From assembly GCA_025774935.1 (NCBI GenBank), contig JALGZK010000019.1, positions 1-39,045 of the forward strand: a stretch of 39,045 nt of DNA, in the 5' to 3' direction. How positions within the stretch are numbered: position 1 is the first letter of the stretch; each line of letters starts with the position of its first letter. The notes below the pieces were generated by a model. That model worked only from the letters and a program-made list of their open reading frames with translations, did no database searches and was not told where the DNA came from. The position numbers and the translations under genes were made by a program. This stretch comes from a bacterium (lineage in GTDB: Bacteria; Joyebacterota; Joyebacteria; Joyebacterales; Joyebacteraceae). This document shows, piece after piece, positions 25,214-39,045 of this stretch.

Positions 25214-25418
25214 ATAGGTAGAAGTTGTGAATGTGGGGCAACAGCATCTGGACCGACGACAGCCCCTTCCCGAGAGCAGGAGTACGCCTCAACCGACACT
25301 GCTAAAGCTCGAACCGACGGAAGTTGAACCAATGCCCGCAGAGCGGGCCGTCACGGAGGAGCTTGCAGTGAGAGGTTGGATCGCACTCCTGCTTTTGCGT
25401 AACGGGAGAGGGGCTGGC

Positions 25419-28400
25419 ATGAGACGTCACGTTCTCACCTGGATACTGGCCGTCGGCATCGTCGCCGCGGCGCAGGGTGGAGCGGCCCGGACTGGGGCAC
25501 GGGTCGCGCTCGATTCCGCGGACGTCGCGGTCGAGGACGTAGGAACCTACCAGAAGCTCACCATCGAAGGACTGACGAGCGGCGGAAACGCGGGCGAGCC
25601 CGCGCTTCCTTTCACGGTACTGCGCTTCGCGATTCCTGCCGATGCGCGCGTGGAAGACGTAGTCGCGACGTGGGTGGATGAGGAAGTCCTTCCGGGGACG
25701 TACCGGGTCGTTCCGGCGCAGCACGAGGTGCCGATCGGAGAGGCGGCCGAGTGGGTCGCTCCCGATCCCTCGATCTACGGGAGCGATGCGGCATTCCCTT
25801 CGAGCCGCGTGACGTACCTCGGGGACGGTTACCTGGGCGGTCACAGGATCGCCGCCGTGGCGGTCTATCCGCTCACGTACGCGCCGGCTTCGGGGACGCT
25901 CACACTCGCGCGCGACATCAGGGTCGAGCTTGAGCTCGCGCCCGGCGCCGACAGGGCTCAGCGCCGCGGTCGGATGACCTCCCGCTCGGAGGACCTCTAT
26001 CGGACCCTCGTCCAGAGCATCGTCGAGAACCCCGGTGACGTCGCGGCACGGCTCGGTGCGGTCGACGTGGTGGACGAGGTGGGTCCGGAGGGATTCCTCC
26101 CGCGCTACAGCCCGTCGCTCGAGGGGAGTCCGGTCGAGTACGTGATCGTGACGAGCGACGAGTTCGCGCCTCAGTTCCAGACGCTCGCGGACTCGAAGAC
26201 CAGGAAGGGCGTTCCGGCCGTTGTCCGGACGGTCTCGTGGATCGAGTCGAACTACCCGGGAGGCTGCGACACGGCCGAGCGAATCCGTCTCTTTCTCAAG
26301 GACGCGTTCTCCTCGTGGGGAACGACGTACGTTCTCATCGGCGGCGACACCGGCGTCGTCCCCATCAGATACGCGAGCTCCGAGTACTACGGCGGCGAGG
26401 AGATCCCGTCGGACCTCTACTACAGCGATCTCGACGGCAACTGGAACGCCGACGGGGACGACAAGTTCGGCGAGGCGTACATGTCGGTCGCGGTCCGGGG
26501 CGACAGCCTCGACCTGTATCCCGACGTGTTCGTCGGGAGGGCGCCCGTCGCGACCGCCGTGCAGGTGGAGAGCTTCCTGGCGAAGTGCGACGCGTACGAG
26601 CGGAGCGTGGACCCGGTCTCGGCCCAGCGGAACCTCTATCTGGCCGAGGTCGTCTTCCCCTACGACTGGGAGAACGGTCCTTACAGCCTCGACGGCGCCG
26701 CCGACGTAATCGAGCCGATACTGCCAAACGTGGCCGGGTCGGTGTCGAACGTCAGGCTCTACGCGAACACCGCGGAGTTCCCGGACGCGCATCTGCTCGG
26801 CGCCCCGGCTGCGCTCGACTCGCTCGACGCCGGGTACAACGTCGTCGTGCACGTCGGGCACGGGAACAAGGACGTCATCAGAGTCAACAAGAACAACTAC
26901 ATCACGATGCCGGACGTCTCCGATCTCTCGAACGGGATCGAGCGGTCGTCCGTCATGTGGATGCTCGACTGCACGTCGGTTGCGGTGGACTACGACTGCA
27001 TCGGCGAGAGGGCGATGAACAACCAGAACGGAGGCGCTGCGGCCGTCTTCGGGCCGACGCGCTACGCGTTCCCCGCCACCCTGAGCAACTACCTCGCCGA
27101 CTGGATCGATCTCCTGTACCAGCAGGGCGTGACCGACATCGGCGCCCTCTGCGCAACGGCCAAGGCGCTCCACGCCCATCCGGAGGAGTCGGAACACGAG
27201 AACCCCAGCCGGTGGACCCAGTTCACGACCGTCCTCCTCGGGGATCCGGAACTCCAGATCTGGAGGGGACGCCCGTCGAACCTGAACGTCGCGCACGTCT
27301 CCTCGATGGCGGTTGGCGAGTCGAATCTCGTCGTGACCGTCACCGGCTCCGGCCCGGTAGAGGGGGCGCTCGTGTGCGCGTCGAAAGACGGCGACGTCTA
27401 CGCGCGCGGAACGACCGATGCGTCGGGACAGGTCGTCCTCGACGTCACTCCGACCACGACCGGCACCATCGACGTCACCGCGTCGGCCTCCGACCACTTC
27501 ATCCGCGAGACGCAGCTCTCCGTCGTCCCCGCTTCCGGGCCGTTCGTCCACCTCCTCACGGCCGCGCCGAACGACGCGGCGGGCGGGAGTGTCGGGAACG
27601 GCAACGGCATGATCGAACCCGGCGAGACGGTCGAGCTCGACGTCGAGATCAGAAACGGCGGAACCGGACTCGCCACCGCAGTGACAGCGGTCCTCTGCTC
27701 GACGGATCCGTACGTGACCATCGAGTCGGACACGGCGATCGTGGGAGACGTCGCCGCAGGAACGATCGTCCCTGTCGACGGCGCCTTCCGCATCAGCGTC
27801 GACCCCTCCTGTCCGAACGAGCACGACCTCGCGCTCACGGTCGACTTCGGCGCGACCGGGTCCGAGGATCTCACGCTCCGCGTATATCGGCCCGACCTGA
27901 CGAACCTGTACGTTCGGTTCGACGACTCGATGGGGAACGGGAATGGCGTGCCGCAGCCTGGCGAGTCGGTCGAGCTCATCGTCGACGTCTGGAACGATGG
28001 TAACGGCGACGCGGAAGACGTCACCGGCACTCTCCGGTACCCGGAGCACCACGCGACGGTCATCGAGAGCACCGCGTCGTGGGGCGGTGTTCCCGCGGGC
28101 TCGACTGTGGAGGGTGGCACAGGCTTCAGGTTCTTCGTGAACCAGTCGATCGCCGGCACGTTCGAGCTGACCCTGACCGACAGATACGGCGTGAGCTGGA
28201 CCTCGTCGATCGACGCCGTCGCACCCGAGGTCCCGGCTGACCTCACGGGCAGGGTGAGGGGCACCACGATCGAGCTCTCGTGGCTGCCTGCAGGCGACCC
28301 CGACCTCCGCGGCTACGACGTCTACAGATCGGAGAGCGAGTTCGGGCCGTTCGGGCGCGTCAACGACGCGATCGTCGAGGGCACGGCCTTCTTCGCCGAC

Positions 28401-30137
28401 CACGGACTCGCCGAGAACAGCCTCTATCATTACTACGTGACCGCCGTCGACGCCTCCGGCAACGAGAGCGCCGGCTCCGCGGTCCTCTCGATCAGCACGA
28501 ACCCGCCGAGCCAGACCGGCTGGCCGCTCGGCACGGGCGCGGGGATGTACGCGAGCCCCGCTGTCGCTGACATCGACGGCGACGGCGTTCTCGAGATCGT
28601 GATGCCCTCGGAGCACATCTATGCGTGGCACGGCGACGGGTCGGAGGTCAGGGACGGCGACGGCGACCCGCGGACGGTGGGCATCTTCGAGGACGACGGC
28701 ACGGGCGGGTACCGCAGCTCCGCGGCGATCGGCGAGCTCGACGGCGATCCGGGCGTTGAGATCGTGTGCGCCGCCTGGGGAGACGTCGGAACGCCCGAGG
28801 AACCGTTCTTCGAGGTCTACGCCTGGAACGGCGAGGACGGAACGGTCGTGCCCGGGTGGCCTGTCGGAACGTCGAAGTTCTGCTGGGCCAGTCCCGCGCT
28901 CGCCGATCTGAACGGTGACGGACTCGCCGAGGTGATCATCCCGAGCGCCGACGGCTACCTCTACTGCTGGACCGGCGACGGCTCCGAGCTCATCGACGGC
29001 GACGGCAACCCGTCGACGACCGGCAGGTTCGCCTGGCTCGGAGACCGGTGGGTCTACGGATCTCCCGCGGTCGCCGATCTCGACGGCGACCTCTCGCTCG
29101 AGATCGTGCAGCCCGGCAAGGACGGCAACATCCACGCGTTCCACGCGGACGGCACGGTCGTGGACGGCTGGCCCGTGAACGTCGGTGCGCGCTCCTTCTG
29201 CTCTCCCGCGATCGGAGACGTCGACGGCGACGGCGAGCTCGAGATCGCGGTCGGCTCCAACCTCGAGCAGGTGTGGCTGCTCGAGGCGGACGGCACGATC
29301 ATGGACGGATGGCCGCGCGGCCTCTTCCTGAACGGTGACTTCCCGCCGTCCCCGGTCCTCGCGGACCTGACCGACGACGGTTTCCTCGAGGTGGTGCTCG
29401 TCGGCTCGGACGGCGAGGTGGTCGTGCGTGACTACACCGGCCAGACGCTGCCCGGGTGGCCTCGGAATCTCGGGAGCTTCACGATGTCGAGCCCCGCGGT
29501 CGCCGACATCGACGGCGATCCCGGAATGGAGATCGTGGTCGGGGCCAACGACGGCCGCATCTACGGATTCGACTCCGACGGGGAGCCCCTGCGCGGGTGG
29601 CCGATCCAGATGGAGGCGGACGTCCACGGTTCGCCCTGCGTGACCGACCTCGACGGTGACGGCGACAACGAGGTCGTGGTCGGCACCATGGACGTGTACG
29701 TCTACGTCTGGGACTGCGCCGGCAACTACGACAACGGCGACGGGGTGCTCTGGGGGACCTTCCTCCACGACCAGTGGCGGACCCAGTACTACGACTTCAC
29801 GCTCCCGACGGGTGTCGACGACGACTGGGGCGACTGGGGCGAAGGTACCAGGCTCGTGCTCGAGCAGAACAGCCCGAACCCCTTCAACCCGTCGACCGAG
29901 ATCTCCTTCGCCGTGCCGCAGCCGACCGGGCAGCCGGTGCACGCGAACCTCACGATCTTCAGCGTGGACGGACGCCTCGTGAAGGTGCTCGTCGACGATC
30001 CGCTTCCCGGCGGGAAGACGTCGGTCGTGTGGGACGGGACCGACGGGAACGGCAGGCGCGTCGCCTCCGGAGTGTACTTCTACCGTCTGACCGTCGGCGG
30101 CGACTCGGAGAGCAGGAAGATGACGTTACTCAAGTAG
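25419..30137 (+). CDS. Secreted gingipain-like C25 cysteine peptidase with FG-GAP propeller and FlgD-like sorting domain
   Basis: The ATG at 25419 begins a signal peptide (MRRHVLTWILAVGIVAAAQG). A GTG at 25368 with a stronger ribosome site (GGAGGA) is in frame and remains possible. Domains of the 1572-residue product: C25 propeptide (about 30-210); caspase-like C25 catalytic domain (about 230-610) with His481 in VHVGHG and Cys518 in WMLDCTS; an Ig-like domain (620-705); two CARDB-like domains opening with GNGNG-PGE (724-830, 837-930); fibronectin III (937-1027); eight FG-GAP repeats of the SPAVADIDGDG type with Ca-binding acids (1040-1430); and a FlgD Ig-like C-terminus starting NSPNPFNPSTE (about 1485-1572). 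That tail is a sorting signal in FCB bacteria. The protein is probably surface-bound or released and cleaves extracellular proteins. It is a single-gene unit. Confidence 0.9.
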   Translation: MRRHVLTWILAVGIVAAAQGGAARTGARVALDSADVAVEDVGTYQKLTIEGLTSGGNAGEPALPFTVLRFAIPADARVEDVVATWVDEEVLPGTYRVVPAQHEVPIGEAAEWVAPDPSIYGSDAAFPSSRVTYLGDGYLGGHRIAAVAVYPLTYAPASGTLTLARDIRVELELAPGADRAQRRGRMTSRSEDLYRTLVQSIVENPGDVAARLGAVDVVDEVGPEGFLPRYSPSLEGSPVEYVIVTSDEFAPQFQTLADSKTRKGVPAVVRTVSWIESNYPGGCDTAERIRLFLKDAFSSWGTTYVLIGGDTGVVPIRYASSEYYGGEEIPSDLYYSDLDGNWNADGDDKFGEAYMSVAVRGDSLDLYPDVFVGRAPVATAVQVESFLAKCDAYERSVDPVSAQRNLYLAEVVFPYDWENGPYSLDGAADVIEPILPNVAGSVSNVRLYANTAEFPDAHLLGAPAALDSLDAGYNVVVHVGHGNKDVIRVNKNNYITMPDVSDLSNGIERSSVMWMLDCTSVAVDYDCIGERAMNNQNGGAAAVFGPTRYAFPATLSNYLADWIDLLYQQGVTDIGALCATAKALHAHPEESEHENPSRWTQFTTVLLGDPELQIWRGRPSNLNVAHVSSMAVGESNLVVTVTGSGPVEGALVCASKDGDVYARGTTDASGQVVLDVTPTTTGTIDVTASASDHFIRETQLSVVPASGPFVHLLTAAPNDAAGGSVGNGNGMIEPGETVELDVEIRNGGTGLATAVTAVLCSTDPYVTIESDTAIVGDVAAGTIVPVDGAFRISVDPSCPNEHDLALTVDFGATGSEDLTLRVYRPDLTNLYVRFDDSMGNGNGVPQPGESVELIVDVWNDGNGDAEDVTGTLRYPEHHATVIESTASWGGVPAGSTVEGGTGFRFFVNQSIAGTFELTLTDRYGVSWTSSIDAVAPEVPADLTGRVRGTTIELSWLPAGDPDLRGYDVYRSESEFGPFGRVNDAIVEGTAFFADHGLAENSLYHYYVTAVDASGNESAGSAVLSISTNPPSQTGWPLGTGAGMYASPAVADIDGDGVLEIVMPSEHIYAWHGDGSEVRDGDGDPRTVGIFEDDGTGGYRSSAAIGELDGDPGVEIVCAAWGDVGTPEEPFFEVYAWNGEDGTVVPGWPVGTSKFCWASPALADLNGDGLAEVIIPSADGYLYCWTGDGSELIDGDGNPSTTGRFAWLGDRWVYGSPAVADLDGDLSLEIVQPGKDGNIHAFHADGTVVDGWPVNVGARSFCSPAIGDVDGDGELEIAVGSNLEQVWLLEADGTIMDGWPRGLFLNGDFPPSPVLADLTDDGFLEVVLVGSDGEVVVRDYTGQTLPGWPRNLGSFTMSSPAVADIDGDPGMEIVVGANDGRIYGFDSDGEPLRGWPIQMEADVHGSPCVTDLDGDGDNEVVVGTMDVYVYVWDCAGNYDNGDGVLWGTFLHDQWRTQYYDFTLPTGVDDDWGDWGEGTRLVLEQNSPNPFNPSTEISFAVPQPTGQPVHANLTIFSVDGRLVKVLVDDPLPGGKTSVVWDGTDGNGRRVASGVYFYRLTVGGDSESRKMTLLK

Positions 30138-30294: not shown

Positions 30295-30348
30295 TTGCAC
30301 ACTCCGGCCAGTCCTGATAGGCTATCCTTAGTGAATTGTGTTCAATTC
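30295..30348 (+). promoter_or_regulatory. Promoter and 5' inverted repeat before the fibre-PAAR pair
   Basis: TTGCAC (30295-30300), a 17-bp spacer and TAGGCT (30318-30323). GAATTG-TGTT-CAATTC (30333-30348) lies at or just after the predicted start site. This is a position for an operator or a leader hairpin. The leader to the ATG at 30404 is about 75 nt. Confidence 0.45.
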
Positions 30349-30403
30349 GCAGCCAGCCGCGAGCGGGGCGCTTGCGGCGCGTACTCAAGAGGAGGGCGGG
30401 AAG

Positions 30404-32521
30404 ATGAGACGGGTCCTTCTGATTGCGCTGGTCGCCGCGTGTGCGGCACTCCCCGGAGCCGGCATCTCGGCCATCCCGGAGACGATCAGCTTCCAGGGTG
30501 TTCTCAGGGACGCCGCCGGGGAGATCGTCCCCGATGGGCCCTACGAGATTCAGTTCATGCTCTACGACGCCGAACAGGGCGGAGACATGCTCTGGGAGGA
30601 GATGCAGACGCTCGAGGTGACCGACGGCGTCTTCAACGCGATCCTCGGGAGCATGATGCCGTTCGCGATGGACTTCGCGGACCAGTACTGGCTGAGCGTC
30701 GCGATCATGGGGGAGCCCGAGCTCGAGCCCCGTGTCGCGCTCTCCTCGAGCCCGTACGCGCTTCGCGCGAACTTCGCCAACTTCGGCCAGGACTCCGACT
30801 GGACGATCGCGGGCGGCGACGTCTATCGCCTCATGGGGAACGTGGGGATTCGGACGAGCGCGCCGGGATACGCGCTCGACGTCGCCGATACGGCCCGGGT
30901 GAACGCGCTCAGGTTGCCTACCGGAGCCACCGACGGCGCCGTCCTCACGTCGAACGCCGCCGGCGACGCGACGTGGCAGGTGCCCTCCTCGGGCGGAATG
31001 GGAGGCGCGGGGACGACGGGTTCCATTCCGGTATTCGTCGCTCCCACCACGCTCGGGAACTCGGTCCTGTTCGAGAACCTCGGCAACGTCGGCACCGGGA
31101 CCGTCTATCCCGCGGCGGCGATCGAGGTCCGCGGAGACGACCGTGGCGTCAGGACGACGTCGGCGGACTCGCTCTTCATGGCGGAGATGAGGTACGACGC
31201 GATTTGGGGACCGCTTCTGCAGGGTGTCATACAGCACATGCCGCCGACGCTCACGCTCGACGCTTTCTCGCCTGGCGTGGGCGACGCCGGAACGATCATC
31301 CTCGGGAAGATGGGGGACGCCGTCGGAATCGGAACGACCACCCCGGGCTCGAGGCTCGAGGTGATCGGGGCGATCAACAGCAAGGACAGCGCCGGCGAGA
31401 ACACGAGGGTCACGATGCGCGGTTACTCGCAGCACGGGGTCCTCAACATCGTCTACGCGGAAGAGGGGAAGGGGCTCAGGTTTCAGACCGACGGTGAGAC
31501 ACGGATGCTCATGAGGAAGGACGGGAACATCGGCATAGGGACGATGAGCCCCGAGAGGCTGCTCGATGTGGCGGGAACGGCTCGGATGGAGGGCTTCGAG
31601 CTGACCACGGGCGTCGCCGAGGGCAACGTACTCATGTCCGACAGTCTGGGTGTGGGTTCGTGGAAGTCGCTCGGGAGCCTCGGGTTCACGCTCGACGACG
31701 CGTACGACGGAGGTGGCGGGGGAGCCGGGAGGACGATCGTGGCCGATTCGGGATCGGTCTACGTCTCGGGTCCGGACGGCCTCACGGTCGACGGCAAGGT
31801 CGGGATAGGCCTCACGAATCCCAACAAGAAACTGTACGTCCACGAGTCGCAGGAGGGCCTCGTGTACCCGCTCAAGCTCCACAACGCAGAGCACTACCCG
31901 GACGTCTCGGTCGGGATTCTCTTCGCGGTGGAGGGTGACAACGTTCCAGACGAGCCGGATACCACCGCGGGCAAAGGTGCCCTCGTCTACGAGATGACGG
32001 ACACCGGCGGCAGGGGAGACTTCCACTTCCTGCAGAACACGGAGTCTGCCTGGGAGCGCAATCCAGCGATCGAAGACGCCGTCATGACGATCCAGAACGA
32101 CGGGGACGTCGGGATCGGGACGACCGATCCCGTGTCGACGTTCGAGGTCGCAGGCGACATGACGATCGTCGACGACGATGTCACAATAGAGACCAGCGGG
32201 GAGACCGTTACCATCACCGTGGGAACACACACGACCGTAACGATTGATCGCCAGGAAGGTGTGATAATCGAGAGCGACTCGATCGAGATTGTGTCGACCG
32301 GCAACCTCGATCTAACGGCCGCGGACGCGATCAACATCAACTCACCGGACATCAACGTCCAGACCCAGACGTTCGACCTCAACGCGACCACGCGCGCTGA
32401 CATCGCGGCCGGCGCCATGATCGACGTGGGAGCGCCCAACATCAACGTTCACGGCGTCGAGGTCTTCGTCACCGGCGCCGGCTTCGTGGACGTCAACGGC
32501 GGCCTGATCACGCTCAACTAG
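30404..32521 (+). CDS. Sec-exported fibre protein ending in a VgrG/gp5-like beta-spike
   Basis: The 705-residue product starts at an ATG behind GAGGAGGGCGGG, with a signal peptide cleaved near GIS-AIP. Residues 24-122 form a beta-sandwich found in FCB secreted fibres (ISFQGVLRDAAGEIVPDGPY through SSSPYALRA). The middle carries repeated tail-fibre motifs of the VGIGTTTP-x-LEV type near residues 146, 229, 306, 378, 466 and 569. The last 115 residues (588-705) are an unbroken series of short beta strands with about 8-residue periodicity (IEIVSTGN, LDLTAADA, ININSPDI) ending LITLN. This resembles the triple beta-helix tip of VgrG or T4 gp5, not the usual S74 chaperone domain. It is probably a trimer, exported and exposed. 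The next gene encodes a PAAR tip protein. Function is inferred only from architecture. Confidence 0.75.
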   Translation: MRRVLLIALVAACAALPGAGISAIPETISFQGVLRDAAGEIVPDGPYEIQFMLYDAEQGGDMLWEEMQTLEVTDGVFNAILGSMMPFAMDFADQYWLSVAIMGEPELEPRVALSSSPYALRANFANFGQDSDWTIAGGDVYRLMGNVGIRTSAPGYALDVADTARVNALRLPTGATDGAVLTSNAAGDATWQVPSSGGMGGAGTTGSIPVFVAPTTLGNSVLFENLGNVGTGTVYPAAAIEVRGDDRGVRTTSADSLFMAEMRYDAIWGPLLQGVIQHMPPTLTLDAFSPGVGDAGTIILGKMGDAVGIGTTTPGSRLEVIGAINSKDSAGENTRVTMRGYSQHGVLNIVYAEEGKGLRFQTDGETRMLMRKDGNIGIGTMSPERLLDVAGTARMEGFELTTGVAEGNVLMSDSLGVGSWKSLGSLGFTLDDAYDGGGGGAGRTIVADSGSVYVSGPDGLTVDGKVGIGLTNPNKKLYVHESQEGLVYPLKLHNAEHYPDVSVGILFAVEGDNVPDEPDTTAGKGALVYEMTDTGGRGDFHFLQNTESAWERNPAIEDAVMTIQNDGDVGIGTTDPVSTFEVAGDMTIVDDDVTIETSGETVTITVGTHTTVTIDRQEGVIIESDSIEIVSTGNLDLTAADAININSPDINVQTQTFDLNATTRADIAAGAMIDVGAPNINVHGVEVFVTGAGFVDVNGGLITLN

Positions 32522-32534
32522 CGGGGGTCTTACC

Positions 32535-32894
32535 ATGAGAAACACACTCAGGATTCTGGCACTCGCCCTCGTTCTCGGCGCGCTCGCGGCGGCATTGGCG
32601 ATGGGCGCGCCAGCGTCGAGGGTCGGCGACATGCACACGTGCCCCCTGTTCGAGCCACCCGGCATCCCGCACGTGGGCGGCCCCATCCTCCTGGGTGACC
32701 CCACGGTCCTGATCTGCGGGCATCCGGCCGCCCGTCTGGGCGATCCGGCGCAGTGCGTCGGTCCTGTCGATTCGATCGCGGGGGGCTCCGGCAGCGTTCT
32801 CATTGGCGGCCTCCCGGCGGCGCGGCAGGGGGACCCGTCCGCGCACGGCGGAGTTGTGGTCGCGGGCTGCCCGACCGTCCTCATCGGGCCGTAG
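32535..32894 (+). CDS. Sec-exported PAAR-domain protein
   Basis: The 119-residue product lies 13 nt after the fibre gene, with GCGGGGG as a weak ribosome site. It has a clear signal peptide (MRNTLRILALALVLGALAAA, cleavage near MGA or APA). The remainder is a single PAAR domain: ASRVGDMHTCP (about 27-37), VLICGHPAARLGD (about 58-70), SVLIGGLPAARQGD (about 87-100), AHGG and VAGCPTVLIGP at the end. The usual zinc ligands (His and Cys in HTC, the later His in AHGG and the Cys in AGC) are present. PAAR proteins form the conical tip on VgrG/gp5 spikes of T6SS, phage tails and eCIS. Those copies lack signal peptides because the spike is assembled in the cytoplasm. Here tip and spike-like fibre are both exported and cotranscribed. 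Confidence 0.88.
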   Translation: MRNTLRILALALVLGALAAALAMGAPASRVGDMHTCPLFEPPGIPHVGGPILLGDPTVLICGHPAARLGDPAQCVGPVDSIAGGSGSVLIGGLPAARQGDPSAHGGVVVAGCPTVLIGP

Positions 32895-33143: not shown

Positions 33144-35309
33144 GTGGCAGCGAGAGCAGACTATCGGATCACCGGGATGTGCTGCATGGAGGAGGTCGCC
33201 GTCCTCAAGAGGGAGGTCGGCGGGCGTCCCGGCGTTCTGAACCTGGACTTCGACGTGGTCGGCGGACGCATGTCCGCCGAGTACGACCCGGAGGTCATCG
33301 ACTCCGAGGCGATCGTCTCCGCGGTCGCCGCCACCGGCATGCGTGCTTCTCCCTGGAGCGACGTCGGGGAGACCGAGGTCCTCTCGTTCTGGGAGGTGCA
33401 CGGACGGCTCGTCATGGCGGGCGCGAGCGCCGTGCTGCTCGCTGCGGGCTTCATCGTTCACTGGGTCGCGCACGGCGGGTTCCTCGACGCTCTCGTGAGC
33501 GGCGAGGACGGCCACGCCTTCCCGGCCGCGTCGATCGTCTTCTACGTGGGCGCCATCGTGACCGGCGCCTGGTTCGTGGCGCCGAAGGCTCTCTTCGCCG
33601 CGAGACGCCTCCGCCCCGACATGAACCTCCTCATGACCGTTGCGATCATCGGGGCGGCCTTCATCGGGGAGTGGTTCGAGGCCGCGACGGTCGCGTTCCT
33701 CTTCGCGGTGGCGCTCCTTCTCGAACACTGGAGCGTCGGCCGCGCGAGGCGCGCGATCTCCGCGCTCATGGAGCTGTCGCCGACGACCGCCCGCTACGTC
33801 TGCCCACACGACGGGGACATCGAGGAGAAGGACGTCGCCGAGGTGCCCCTCGGGGTGACGGTGCTCGTCCGGCCAGGCGAGAGGATCCCGCTCGACGGCG
33901 TCGTCTCGAAGGGGGAGTCGTCCGTCAACCAGGCGCCGATCACGGGTGAGTCGATCCCGGTGGCGAAGGCGCCGGGCGACGAGGTCTTCGCGGGGACGAT
34001 TAACGAGGACGGCGCACTCGAGTTCACATCCACGAAGCCCGCGGACGACACGACGCTTGCGCGCATCATCCATCTGGTGCAGGAGGCGCAGTCGCGGCGC
34101 GCCGTCGCGGAGCAGTGGGTCGACAGGTTCGCGCGGTACTACACCCCTATAATGATGGCCCTCGCCGCAGGGGTCGCGGTCGTGCCTCCGCTCGTCACGA
34201 GTGGCTCGTGGACGGAGTGGCTCTACAAGGGCCTCGTGGTCCTCGTGATCGCGTGCCCGTGCGCACTCGTGATATCGACGCCGGTCAGCGTCGTCTCGGG
34301 ACTCACCGCCGCCGCCCGTCACGGGGTCCTCGTGAAGGGCGGAATCTGCCTCGAGGAGGCTGGCAGGGTACGAGCGCTCGCTCTTGACAAGACTGGGACG
34401 TTGACACATGGCCAGCCTGAGGTGCAGGAGATCGTGCCGCTCTCCGGGCACGACGTGCGGGAGCTCCTCGAGCGGGCCGCCGCGCTGGAGGCCTCGAGCG
34501 AGCACCCCATCGCCAGGGCGATCCTCAGGAGGGCTGAGGCGGAGGGCATTGCCGTCCGCCAGGTCGACTCGTTCAAGGCGATCGCCGGCAAGGGAGCAGA
34601 GGCCACGATCGACGGCAGGATGTTCTGGATCGGGAGCCACCGCCTGATGCTCCAGGAGCACCAGGAGACCGAGGAGGTAACCCGGCGCGCGACCGAGCTC
34701 GAGGACGTGGGGCACTCCGTAGTCGCGATCGGGAACGACGAGCACGTGTGCGGGCTCATCAGCGTCGCGGACGGCGTGCGCGACGAGGCGAAGACCGCGG
34801 TCGACGCTCTCGGGAAGCTCGGGATCGGGAACATCGTGATGCTCACCGGTGACAATGAGGGCACCGCGGCCGCCGTCGCTGAAGCCACGGGCGTCGACGA
34901 GTTCCGGGCGGAGCTTCTTCCGGAAGACAAGGTCGACGTCGTGGAGTCGCTCGTACGCGAGCACGGGCACGTCGGAATGGTGGGGGACGGTGTGAACGAC
35001 GCGCCCGCGATGGCCGCCTCGACGCTTGGCATCGCGATGGGCGCGATCGGGACGGACGCCGCGATCGAGACTGCCGACGTCGCGCTCATGTCGGACGACC
35101 TCTCGAAGCTCGCGCTGCTCGTGCGTCACTCGCGCCGGACGCTCCGCGTCATCAAGCAGAACATCGGCTTCGCACTCGGACTCAAGTTCGTCTTCATCGT
35201 TCTCGCGCTCTTCGGCGTCGCGACGCTCTGGATGGCGATCGCCGCCGACATGGGAGCGTCTCTCCTCGTCATCGCGAACGGCCTGAGACTTCTCCGCGTT
35301 CGCGAGTAG
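33144..35309 (+). CDS. Zinc/cadmium/lead-type P1B ATPase
   Basis: The 721-residue product starts at GTG with AGGGGAG upstream. The N-terminal HMA domain (1-70) has GMCCMEE (11-17), a CCxxE metal motif instead of CxxC. Eight membrane helices follow. The actuator has ITGES (about 269-273), TM6 has C371-P372-C373, phosphorylation is at D415-KTGT, the nucleotide-binding domain has H454-P455 and the hinge is G614-DGVND. The last helix has ADMGASLLVIANGLRLL, whose Asp and Gly mark the Zn/Cd/Pb subgroup (ZntA/CadA/HMA2-4) rather than copper pumps. It exports divalent metal from the cytosol using ATP. It is a single-gene unit with its own promoter and terminator. It is not linked functionally to its neighbours by sequence. 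Confidence 0.93.
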   Translation: MAARADYRITGMCCMEEVAVLKREVGGRPGVLNLDFDVVGGRMSAEYDPEVIDSEAIVSAVAATGMRASPWSDVGETEVLSFWEVHGRLVMAGASAVLLAAGFIVHWVAHGGFLDALVSGEDGHAFPAASIVFYVGAIVTGAWFVAPKALFAARRLRPDMNLLMTVAIIGAAFIGEWFEAATVAFLFAVALLLEHWSVGRARRAISALMELSPTTARYVCPHDGDIEEKDVAEVPLGVTVLVRPGERIPLDGVVSKGESSVNQAPITGESIPVAKAPGDEVFAGTINEDGALEFTSTKPADDTTLARIIHLVQEAQSRRAVAEQWVDRFARYYTPIMMALAAGVAVVPPLVTSGSWTEWLYKGLVVLVIACPCALVISTPVSVVSGLTAAARHGVLVKGGICLEEAGRVRALALDKTGTLTHGQPEVQEIVPLSGHDVRELLERAAALEASSEHPIARAILRRAEAEGIAVRQVDSFKAIAGKGAEATIDGRMFWIGSHRLMLQEHQETEEVTRRATELEDVGHSVVAIGNDEHVCGLISVADGVRDEAKTAVDALGKLGIGNIVMLTGDNEGTAAAVAEATGVDEFRAELLPEDKVDVVESLVREHGHVGMVGDGVNDAPAMAASTLGIAMGAIGTDAAIETADVALMSDDLSKLALLVRHSRRTLRVIKQNIGFALGLKFVFIVLALFGVATLWMAIAADMGASLLVIANGLRLLRVRE

Positions 35310-35565: not shown

Positions 35566-35590
35566 TGGGTCGTGGTGGGATTAAGTGGGC
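35566..35590 (+). promoter_or_regulatory. MraZ operator: three TGGGN boxes with 5-nt spacers
   Basis: TGGGT (35566-35570), TGGGA (35576-35580) and TGGGC (35586-35590) repeat with an exact 10-bp period. MraZ is known to bind TGGGN direct repeats with 5-nt spacers in its own promoter region. Here they lie at about +3 to +27, so binding should repress the cluster. A further TGGGA at 35545 is one base out of register. Confidence 0.85.
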
Positions 35591-35614: not shown

Positions 35615-36160
35615 ATGACCTCCTTCCTGGGTACGCACCGTCACACCGTCGACGCGAAGGGACGTCTCTCCATTCCTTCCAAGTTCCGGAAGGCAACGGG
35701 AGACGTCTTCATCGTGACGCGCGGTCTCGACGGCTGCCTCTTCCTCTACCCGAAGGAGGAGTGGGACCTGATCGCACAGAAGGTCCGCTCGCTCGAGTGG
35801 ACCGAAGACGACCCGCGCTTCTTCGCGCGAGAGTTCGCCGCGTACGCTCACGAGATGACCGTCGACAGCCACGGCCGCGTGATGATCCCGCAGGAGCTCC
35901 GGGACTTCGTCCACATCAAGACCGACGTGCTCGTCATCGGGGCGTTCGAGAGGATCGAGGTCTGGGCTCCCGACGTGTACAAGGCCTACCGATCGGGCTA
36001 CGCGCACACGTTCGAACAGGCGTCGGCGCGGCTCTATGGGAAGGAACGGCCGGCGGACGTCGACGGGAAGCGCGCCTCGAAGGCGAAGCGCACCGTGAAG
36101 GCGAAGAGCGCTCCGAGAACGAGGCGGGCGGCGAAGGGGAAGGTGAGGAAGAAGCGATGA
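35615..36160 (+). CDS. mraZ: Transcriptional regulator MraZ
   Basis: The 181-residue product has two AbrB-like half-repeats with the family's DxxGR signatures: DAKGRLSIP (about 13-21) and DSHGRVMIP (about 83-91). This is the swapped-hairpin fold that assembles into a ring. Ordinary MraZ is about 140-150 residues. This one adds about 40 residues of Lys/Arg/Ala-rich tail (from about 143), likely disordered and able to contact DNA. MraZ represses the division and cell-wall cluster by binding TGGGN repeats, which are present just upstream. Its last codons overlap the STAS gene (ATGA). The ribosome site is weak. Confidence 0.95.
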   Translation: MTSFLGTHRHTVDAKGRLSIPSKFRKATGDVFIVTRGLDGCLFLYPKEEWDLIAQKVRSLEWTEDDPRFFAREFAAYAHEMTVDSHGRVMIPQELRDFVHIKTDVLVIGAFERIEVWAPDVYKAYRSGYAHTFEQASARLYGKERPADVDGKRASKAKRTVKAKSAPRTRRAAKGKVRKKR

Positions 36161-36516
36161 CGATCCGTTCCCGGTTCACCGACGACGGCGCCGTGCTCCA
36201 GATGGCAGGGAGCATGGCCGGCCGCGACTTCGGCGACCTCCACCGGGAGCTCGTCGACCTGCTCCGCTCGAGGCGGAGGCGGATCGTCCTGGACTTCGAG
36301 GGCGTGGAGCACGTCAGCTACCGCGACGCCCACGAGCTCGCCCGGGAGTTCGAGCTCGTGCGCTCGTACAGTGGGGATCTGAGGGTTGCCGGTCTCTCTC
36401 CGTACGTCAGGGACATCCTGGTGTTCGCAGGGCTCTCCGGCTTCCTCGATGCACATAGACCCGATTCGGTGGCCACGGAAGGACCAGGATCTGCACGCGT
36501 GCCGCGCGCGAGCTGA
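36157..36516 (+). CDS. STAS-domain protein with a degenerate phosphosite
   Basis: The ATG at 36157 overlaps the mraZ stop. The 119-residue product folds as a STAS domain: GAVLQMAGSMAGRDFGDLHR (11-30), then RRIVLDFEGVEHVSYRDAHEL (about 41-61) and RVAGLSPYVRDILVFAGL (about 76-93). This follows the anti-sigma-factor antagonist pattern. In SpoIIAA/RsbV proteins the loop after the central strand is DSSGL with a phosphorylated Ser. Here it reads S54-Y-R-D57, so Ser phosphorylation is not possible at that site. No anti-sigma kinase or phosphatase gene is nearby. Its place between mraZ and rsmH, with coupled translation, suggests a role tied to division or envelope growth. That role is inference. The 15-residue tail is unstructured. 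Confidence 0.75.
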   Translation: MTIRSRFTDDGAVLQMAGSMAGRDFGDLHRELVDLLRSRRRRIVLDFEGVEHVSYRDAHELAREFELVRSYSGDLRVAGLSPYVRDILVFAGLSGFLDAHRPDSVATEGPGSARVPRAS

Positions 36517-36588: not shown

Positions 36589-37527
36589 ATGCAGTCCGGA
36601 CACCTGCCGGTGATGACCGCTGAGGTGGTGGAGTACTTGGTCGTGCGGACCGACGGCATCTACATCGACTGCACGACCGGTTCGGGGGGGCACTCGCACC
36701 GCATCCTCCTGAACGCGCCGTCCGGACGTCTGCTCGGGATCGACGTCGACCCGGCCGCGATCAAGCGCGCCAGGGAGACGCTTTCGGAATTCGGCGAGAG
36801 GTACGAGCTCACGATGGCGAACTTCTCTGAACTCGCCGCCACTGCCCGCGATCACGGCATCGACCAGTGCGACGGAATCCTCTTCGACCTGGGCTTCTCC
36901 TCGCTCCAGCTCGACGACCCCTCGCGCGGCCTCTCCTTCCAGGAGGAGGGGCCGATCGACATGCGGCTCGATCCTACGTCGGGGCCGACCGCGCACGACG
37001 TGATCTCCCGCTCCGAGGAGAGGGAACTCGCCGGGATCATCCGCGACTTCGGCGAGGAGAAGCGGGCGCACCCGATCGCCCGGTCGATCATCGCGGCGCG
37101 GGAGCGTGGCCAGCTCGACACGACGCGCGACCTCGCCAAGGCCGTCCTCGCGACGAAGCCGCAGCATCGCCAGAAGACTCTCGCTCGCGTCTTCCAGGCG
37201 CTCAGGATCGCCGTGAACGACGAGCTCTCGAGCCTCCGCTCCGGGCTCGAGCAGGCCGTCGCGCTCCTGCGGCCGGGCGGTCGAGTGGTCGTCATCGCCT
37301 ATCACAGCCTCGAGGACCGGATCGTCAAGCAGTTCTTCGTGCGGTCGGAACGGCCGTGCGTCTGCCCGAAGGAGCTCCCGAAGTGCGCGTGCGGCAGGGA
37401 GCCCACACTCAGGATCGTCACGAGGAGGATCGTGACGCCCACGGACGCGGAGATCGCCAGGAACCCGCGCGCCAGGTCGGCGAAGCTCCGGACCGCCGAA
37501 CGGCTCGCGGAAGGGGAGAAGCCGTGA
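36589..37527 (+). CDS. rsmH: 16S rRNA (cytosine1402-N4)-methyltransferase
   Basis: The 312-residue product begins MQSGHLPVM, matching the family's HxPV start. SAM motif I is CTTGSGGHS (about 25-33). Other signatures are DLGFSSLQLDD (about 98-108), RGLSF (110-114) and YHSLEDRIVKQFF (about 238-250). A CxCPKELPKCxCG cysteine cluster (about 257-269) precedes the basic C-terminal helix. RsmH methylates N4 of C1402 in the 30S decoding centre and is classically the second gene of the dcw cluster. A 72-nt gap with no visible signal separates it from the STAS gene. Its stop overlaps ftsL. Confidence 0.96.
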   Translation: MQSGHLPVMTAEVVEYLVVRTDGIYIDCTTGSGGHSHRILLNAPSGRLLGIDVDPAAIKRARETLSEFGERYELTMANFSELAATARDHGIDQCDGILFDLGFSSLQLDDPSRGLSFQEEGPIDMRLDPTSGPTAHDVISRSEERELAGIIRDFGEEKRAHPIARSIIAARERGQLDTTRDLAKAVLATKPQHRQKTLARVFQALRIAVNDELSSLRSGLEQAVALLRPGGRVVVIAYHSLEDRIVKQFFVRSERPCVCPKELPKCACGREPTLRIVTRRIVTPTDAEIARNPRARSAKLRTAERLAEGEKP

Positions 37528-37904
37528 AGCACGAGCGGGGGCTCAGGCGACTGATGAAACGGTTCGGGGGATCGCTCCACACGCGTGGTTTCATCCTCTG
37601 GGCCGCCGCGCTCGCCACCGGCATCCTCTGCGTCTGGCAGCACGTCTACTCGATGCGGCTCGCATCGGAGATCCAAACCCTCAGGGACCGACGCGAAACG
37701 CTCCAGGCCGAGATCGGATTCCTGCACATCGCGTGCGCCGAGCTCTCCAGCCGGGAGCGCATCGAGGTGTACGCCCAGGAGCGGCTCGGCATGCGCTACC
37801 CGGAGGGTCACGAGGTCAGAAGGCTCGCGTCCGAGAGCCCGCAGGACGGGGCGCGGGCGGACGAGTTCGTAGGGAGAGAGGACGATGAGGTCCAGGACGG
37901 CTAG
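37524..37904 (+). CDS. ftsL: FtsL-like cell-division protein
   Basis: The GTG at 37524 overlaps the rsmH stop and is preceded by AAGGGGAG. The product is 126 residues: a basic cytosolic leader (1-20), one membrane helix (about 23-42), then a periplasmic coiled coil (about 45-75). The coiled coil ends in ELSSRERIEVYAQERLGM (about 74-91), the FtsL/DivIC-type motif, and an acidic tail follows. FtsL joins FtsB and FtsQ to activate septal peptidoglycan synthesis by FtsW and FtsI. The position between rsmH and ftsI confirms the identity despite low sequence conservation. It overlaps ftsI by 20 nt. Confidence 0.88.
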   Translation: MKHERGLRRLMKRFGGSLHTRGFILWAAALATGILCVWQHVYSMRLASEIQTLRDRRETLQAEIGFLHIACAELSSRERIEVYAQERLGMRYPEGHEVRRLASESPQDGARADEFVGREDDEVQDG

Positions 37905-39045
37905 GGACGACAGGGGCAACACGCACGCCAGGCGCATCAGGGTCGCGCTCATCGTCGGGCTCGGCATCTGGGTCTTCATCGCCGGGCGTCTCGCGATGAT
38001 CCAGCTCGTGCACGGACCCCGCCTCGCCAGCTGCGCGAGGCGGCAGCAGTTCGCGGAGGTCGTGCTCGCGGCGGACCGCGGGACGATCTACGACCGCAAC
38101 ATGATCCCCCTGACCGACAACCTCACCGTCAGCTCCGTCTGCGCCTACCCGCACGAGGTCGAGGCGGCGAAGAACGTCGCCCACGCCCTCGCGAAGGTCC
38201 TCGGAGGAAGCTACAGGGACTACCAGTCGAAGCTCCGGGAGGACCGGAACTTCGTCTGGATCGCGCGCCAGGTCCCGCCGAGCAAGGCCGAGCGTCTCGC
38301 CGAGATGGCGCTCCCCGGAATCGACTTCCTCACAGAGAGCAAGCGGGTGTACCCGCAGGGCCGCCACGGGGCTCACGTCGTCGGGCTGACCGACGTCGAC
38401 GGGAACGGCCTCTGCGGGGTCGAGCTCCAGATGGACGAGCCCCTGACCGGGGCCCGCGAGACCGTCATCCACTTCCTGGACGGCGCCGGGCGGCGGACGC
38501 CCGCCCCGGCGTGCACGAAGGTCGTCCCGAAGGACGGCGAGTCGGTCGTCCTCACCATCGACCTCGGCCTCCAGAGCATCGCGGAGGTCGAACTCGAGCG
38601 GGCCGTCCGCGAGTGGGAGGCGAAGGCGGGCTCGATCGTGATCCAGGACCCGTGGTCCGGCGAGATCCTCGCGATGGCGAGCTGGCCGTCGTTCGACCCG
38701 AACAACCCGTCCCGCTACTCGGTCGAGAGCCAGAAGAACCGCGTCGTCACCGACCAGTTCGAGCCGGGATCGACGTTCAAGGTCGTGACGGCCTCTGCCG
38801 CGCTCGAGACGGGCGCCGCGGGACGGAACGCGGGACGGAACTCGGTCTACTGGGCGGGGCGGGGCAAGAAGAGGGTCGGCCCGGCGCTCATCCACGACGT
38901 GAAAGAGCGCGGGTGGCTCGTCTTCGACGAAGCGCTCGTCTACTCGAGCAACGTCTGCTTCGCGGAGATCGCGTGCTCCGTGGGCGACCTGCTCCTCTAC
39001 TCATACGCGCGCGACTTCGGCTTCGGGAGCCCCACGGGCATCGAC
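37885..39045 (+). CDS. ftsI: Penicillin-binding protein FtsI/Spo VD type, 5' part
   Basis: The ATG at 37885 lies inside ftsL behind AGGGAGAGAGG. The frame is open to the window's right end, so 387 residues are visible. There is a basic cytosolic start, one membrane helix (about 20-40), then the class B PBP dimerisation domain with ADRGTIYDRN (about 63-72), KRVYPQGRHGAHVVG (about 153-167) and GVELQMDEPLTG (about 178-189). The transpeptidase domain has the active-site S296-TFK299 and the second motif S354-SN356. The KTG motif would lie beyond the edge. It crosslinks septal peptidoglycan. A SpoVD-like PASTA tail cannot be checked here. Confidence 0.93.
   Translation, partial: MRSRTARDDRGNTHARRIRVALIVGLGIWVFIAGRLAMIQLVHGPRLASCARRQQFAEVVLAADRGTIYDRNMIPLTDNLTVSSVCAYPHEVEAAKNVAHALAKVLGGSYRDYQSKLREDRNFVWIARQVPPSKAERLAEMALPGIDFLTESKRVYPQGRHGAHVVGLTDVDGNGLCGVELQMDEPLTGARETVIHFLDGAGRRTPAPACTKVVPKDGESVVLTIDLGLQSIAEVELERAVREWEAKAGSIVIQDPWSGEILAMASWPSFDPNNPSRYSVESQKNRVVTDQFEPGSTFKVVTASAALETGAAGRNAGRNSVYWAGRGKKRVGPALIHDVKERGWLVFDEALVYSSNVCFAEIACSVGDLLLYSYARDFGFGSPTGID

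Follow-up and report, generated by a model that had tools for sequence, protein, structure and literature searches.

A family of STAS proteins, apparently blind to phosphorylation, in the division and cell-wall cluster of several bacterial phyla: a possible partner of MraZ and RsmH

The DNA described here is a bacterial stretch of 39,045 nt, called the window below, and all coordinates are positions in it. Its right-hand end carries the head of a division and cell-wall (dcw) cluster, in which the genes, identified by profile matches, all lie on the + strand. The mraZ gene (35615..36160), the product of which scores above the TIGR00242 cut-off, is followed by a gene for a STAS protein of 119 residues (36157..36516; dcw-STAS below). 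The next genes are rsmH, or mraW, for a 16S rRNA methyltransferase (36589..37527), which lies 72 nt past the STAS stop, ftsL (37524..37904; PF04999) and ftsI, which encodes a penicillin-binding protein and continues past the window end (37885..39045). The STAS reading frame begins with ATG and ends with TGA, and its start overlaps the mraZ stop codon (36158-36160) in the sequence ATGA. The overlap, the Pfam match given below and the identity of the neighbors confirm what the sequence-only reading had proposed, namely an extra STAS gene that is placed between mraZ and rsmH and coupled to mraZ. Upstream of mraZ, on the same strand, is the triple repeat TGGG-N6-TGGG-N6-TGGG (35566..35589), found once in the window against an expectation of 0.00. 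No kinase, phosphatase, sigma or anti-sigma gene is seen between mraZ and ftsI of the window.

The surroundings of the cluster have several features of their own. The C-terminal tail of MraZ, about 36 residues long and rich in Lys, Arg and Ala (36050-36157), is atypical for MraZ and possibly binds DNA. A heavy-metal P-type ATPase is encoded immediately upstream of the cluster (33144-35309). Further upstream, a small protein that probably has a signal peptide and contains a PAAR motif (32535-32894; E 3.5e-24) directly follows a large protein that has no Pfam match (30338-32521). Another large protein, of the secreted type (25227-30137), combines a gingipain-like (C25) peptidase domain with FG-GAP repeats and, at its C-terminus, a FlgD-like domain, a make-up shared with proteins that carry type IX-like sorting tails.

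The product of the STAS gene matches the Pfam STAS domain (PF01740) with E=3.8e-7 and 30.3 bits (cut-off 22.6), and its TIGR00377 score of 29.8 bits is below the cut-off of 53.45. Third codon positions hold 20 of the 29 differences between the gene and its nearest relative, which indicates that it is under coding selection. The Pfam match, this selection and the orthologues described below rule out a chance or mis-called reading frame. In a single-sequence AlphaFold (AF2) model (pLDDT 78.8), the 14 best PDB matches are all single-domain STAS proteins. The closest structures are those of SpoIIAA and RsbV, among them the complexes with SpoIIAB and RsbW (TM about 0.7); MlaB is also among the matches, ranked well below them. 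According to the model, dcw-STAS has the STAS alpha/beta fold of the SpoIIAA/RsbV type.

A profile alignment to SpoIIAA (1auz) over the whole length pairs FMDSSGLG with HVSYRDAH. The residues SYRD (S54-Y55-R56-D57) fall on the DSSG loop, and the position of the phospho-serine is taken by Tyr55. The Ser or Thr phospho-acceptor expected in the DSSG-type loop of a SpoIIAA/RsbV-type protein is therefore absent, and the earlier suggestion that SYRD has replaced DSSG with loss of the phospho-serine is borne out. Nor is a canonical phospho-serine found elsewhere in the loop, where S54 is the sole serine. This residue is off the phosphosite and is not conserved, being D, N or G in relatives, which rules out that the phospho-serine has moved within the loop.

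A whole-genome search finds an orthologue in 17 of the 19 relatives from the same family, with E 2.3e-32 or better, and all 17 orthologues sit between mraZ and rsmH. The synteny expected by the sequence-only reading thus holds, and the gene is not missing from the relatives, the outcome that would have spoken against that reading. In a first domain-wide sample the three best matches outside the family likewise had the order mraZ-STAS-rsmH. Profile searches added more families, and four other phyla were then searched. The complete order is present in 167 genomes of 40 GTDB families, among them 18 of the 20 genomes of the phylum of the window. Examination of the loci shows the full triad in 62 of the 68 genomes in the phylum of genome G293, in 38/47 in that of G213, in all ten in that of G148 and in 32 of 45 in that of G350. 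Families f25, f29, f7 and f132, which also have the triad, lie outside these five phyla. The gene therefore spans at least six phyla, perhaps nine. Its synteny, family-wide and across phyla, rules out a local insertion in one genome, and by its conserved position in these lineages dcw-STAS is, as far as gene order can tell, a component of the dcw cluster.

The STAS gene is tightly packed behind mraZ: with STAS starts chosen nearest the mraZ stop, the gap has a median of -1 nt and is at most 25 nt in 125 of 161 cases. In several families the STAS reading frame also overlaps the start of rsmH. In family f183 (loci L265, L267 and L269-L272) two STAS genes stand in tandem between mraZ and rsmH, and neither product has the phospho-serine. 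MraZ-STAS fusions, which might have given a clue to the partner, were not found.

MraZ was searched for in 28 genomes, from three phyla, that had no clear dcw-STAS. Nineteen of them carry mraZ; all belong to the phylum of G213 and had not been clearly assigned by the STAS search at E<=1e-12. In each of the 19 a STAS-profile match, in some cases a weak one, directly follows mraZ. Six genomes (G009, G012, G458, G467, G487 and G489) have neither a dcw-STAS nor a MraZ match, which can come from joint loss or from incomplete assemblies. G009 and G012 are the two family relatives without dcw-STAS; with assembly completeness at 90% and 57%, the joint absence in them is weak evidence. At ten mraZ and rsmH loci of other groups, including Patescibacteria, Bacilli, Actinomycetes and Acidimicrobiia, no STAS match is present, so that the gene is widespread rather than universal.

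The STAS proteins were classed by location alone, 174 in dcw clusters and 80 elsewhere. The position of the phospho-serine is occupied by a residue other than Ser or Thr in 171 of the 174 dcw proteins: Tyr in 107, Phe in 13 and mostly Val, Leu, Ala or Ile in the remainder. The loops of the remaining three proteins read SSEG, NSTG and ESRQ. All 80 non-dcw homologues have Ser or Thr there, and as they were retrieved with a dcw profile, any bias in this set should be toward dcw-like sequences. The difference corresponds to a Fisher p of about 3e-63, a value that overstates the independence of the sequences; counted per family, Ser/Thr is the majority residue in 0/40 dcw and 43/43 non-dcw families. 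In the family of the window the loop varies (SYRD, SYQD, DYQD, NYQN, GYHD, SYRH) and the Tyr is constant. Judged from these alignments, loss of the phospho-serine characterizes the STAS proteins of dcw clusters in different phyla.

This position is by far the best at separating dcw from non-dcw STAS proteins. It is followed by the next residue, by residues 63, 64 and 66, which are on the helix after the phospho-serine loop, and by Tyr83 and His52. SpoIIAA contacts SpoIIAB through the face formed by the phospho-serine loop and the following helix. The discriminating positions probably lie at or near this face. The substitutions can be read as a binding face that was kept and adapted to another partner.

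The history of the family was traced with a tree in which 33 dcw and 41 non-dcw proteins represent the two sets; it was calculated from 108 columns with the loop columns omitted. A single branch, with support 90/90, parts dcw from non-dcw proteins, and many other forks are unresolved. The dcw label changes once on the tree, compared with a mean of 24.4 changes in shuffled labelings, none of which had as few. Given the number of columns and of unresolved forks, a single origin is favored rather than proven, and the tree has the form expected of one old STAS family inherited with the cluster. The distances between STAS proteins follow those between RsmH (r=0.83) and MraZ (r=0.74) proteins, which again agrees with inheritance as part of the cluster. 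The partial correlations are 0.60 for RsmH versus 0.25 for MraZ, and the better fit to RsmH may reflect inheritance alone. Mutual information with APC correction, calculated from the 167 genomes (effective number about 57), shows no excess over within-family shuffles for STAS-MraZ or for STAS-RsmH.

The TGGG triple repeat, with its period of 10 nt, precedes mraZ in 16 of the 17 family loci, and forms with two repeats precede it in 74 of 162 loci, where shuffles give an expectation of 1.2. The binding sites known for MraZ consist of GTG-containing repeats with a period of 10 nt, and the protein is a repressor of the operon that encodes it (PMC7761207; PMC8475190). The triple repeat is therefore likely to be a MraZ operator, and the STAS gene is probably under MraZ control.

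By combining these observations, it is possible to suggest a role for the protein. At the level of sequence, the position of the gene, its tight spacing, its co-inheritance with the cluster, the SpoIIAA/RsbV-type fold and the systematic loss of the phospho-serine are well established. They suggest, tentatively and with somewhat less than even confidence, that dcw-STAS is an unrecognized STAS family of the dcw cluster in several phyla, the members of which serve as phosphorylation-blind adaptors in a control module of MraZ and RsmH. A broader formulation, held slightly more cautiously still, is that an ancient and previously undescribed dcw component joins MraZ and RsmH as the third element of a switch for dcw expression. 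The protein would be a small protein-binding adaptor that is permanently in its 'unphosphorylated' form. It would be produced together with MraZ from the MraZ-controlled promoter and would tune the MraZ/RsmH pair by contacting it directly with the altered loop and helix face; it might, for instance, limit the activity of MraZ on its operator. The action of such an adaptor would depend on stoichiometry instead of on a kinase/phosphatase switch. MraZ and MraW are reported to be antagonistic (PMC8475190), which makes a third factor encoded between them plausible. The tree, the distances, the operator-like repeats and the six genomes that lack both dcw-STAS and a MraZ match fit this proposal as well. 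Against it, the partner is one that we infer, covariation with either protein stays at the shuffle level, and the distances between STAS proteins match those of RsmH more closely than those of MraZ. Moreover, MraZ and RsmH function without a STAS protein in most of the bacteria studied, and the ten loci of other groups have both genes with no STAS match.

The nearest structures and HMMs are those of SpoIIAA and RsbV, and anti-anti-sigma proteins bind their targets when unphosphorylated (PMC8256260). The protein might then be a phosphorylation-blind antagonist that permanently binds an RsbW/SpoIIAB-type anti-sigma factor, thus freeing a sigma factor and tying it to dcw expression. The genome does encode at least one RsbW-like kinase and five SpoIIE-type phosphatases; none of its RsbW-like or SpoIIE-like matches is on the contig of dcw-STAS. 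The sequence-only reading had pointed to this pathway, for which an anti-sigma kinase without a nearby antagonist would be a sign. The search did not bear this out: the sole strong stand-alone RsbW-like kinase of the genome (C4:56103-56477, E 8e-24) directly adjoins a second STAS protein of the genome, P0006, which bears the serine in an NSTG loop. The gene stretch from mraZ to ftsI offers no sigma or anti-sigma partner, and the TIGR00377 score is below the cut-off. The residue after the phosphosite and residues 63, 64, 66 and 83, on the same face, differ from those of non-dcw STAS proteins; with the discriminating residues at the loop and the next helix, a different partner is more probable than constitutive antagonism of an anti-sigma factor. 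Such antagonism has no positive support, and we consider it rather improbable.

It is also unlikely, though conceivable, that dcw-STAS is an adaptor for some other target. This could be a divisome protein (FtsL or FtsI), the rRNA methyltransferase by itself or, as with MlaB, an ABC ATPase. The RsmH distances, which give the best fit, the overlap of the STAS frame with the rsmH start in several families and the presence of MlaB among the fold matches would agree with such a role. However, MlaB comes far behind SpoIIAA/RsbV as a structural match, STAS and RsmH show no covariation signal, and the gene always lies directly after mraZ and not beside mla genes. The frequency of Tyr in dcw STAS proteins (107/174) could mean that the Tyr, or the Phe or hydrophobic residue in its place, is itself a switch operated by tyrosine phosphorylation or by a ligand at the loop, but whole families have the non-phosphorylatable Val, Leu, Ala or Phe, which leaves this idea very little room. 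A passenger or relic gene without a division function, as the two family genomes and the well-studied dcw clusters that lack it might suggest, can practically be dismissed in view of its retention across phyla, its conserved core residues, its coding selection and the single change of label on the tree.

Few bacterial gene clusters are as well conserved as the dcw cluster, and the role of its first genes, mraZ and rsmH, is still little understood. A third gene that several phyla retain between these two, and whose product has systematically lost the signaling residue, would provide a direct handle on MraZ/RsmH control. Many STAS proteins annotated as anti-sigma antagonists are probably unable to use the textbook serine switch. 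A search of the open-access literature found no paper connecting a STAS protein with mraZ or with the dcw cluster, and dcw-STAS is probably new to the literature.

Comparison with known systems places the protein as follows. It shares with SpoIIAA and RsbV (PDB 1auz, 1tid and 6m36) the single STAS domain and the fold, aligned over the full length. Unlike them, it has Tyr at the phospho-serine, further changes on the same face and a TIGR00377 score below the cut-off, and it is encoded in the dcw cluster without kinase or sigma partner genes. MlaB, the STAS subunit of MlaFEDB, resembles it in using a STAS domain as a non-switching protein partner. MlaB has a DTAG-type loop with Thr and belongs to an mla operon, whereas dcw-STAS has the SYRD loop, the dcw context and a weaker structural match to MlaB. 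The non-canonical STAS-domain-only proteins SypA, RbaV and HmpV are similar in that they are thought to act directly when unphosphorylated; SypA, however, is switched at its serine and RbaV retains the conserved serine (PMC8256260). That review of such proteins does not mention mraZ or cell division. Finally, the arrangement resembles that of the known MraZ-RsmH pair with which the dcw cluster opens, with the two genes in the same operon and MraZ-operator-like repeats upstream; textbook clusters have nothing between mraZ and rsmH, whereas here a conserved STAS gene is inserted.
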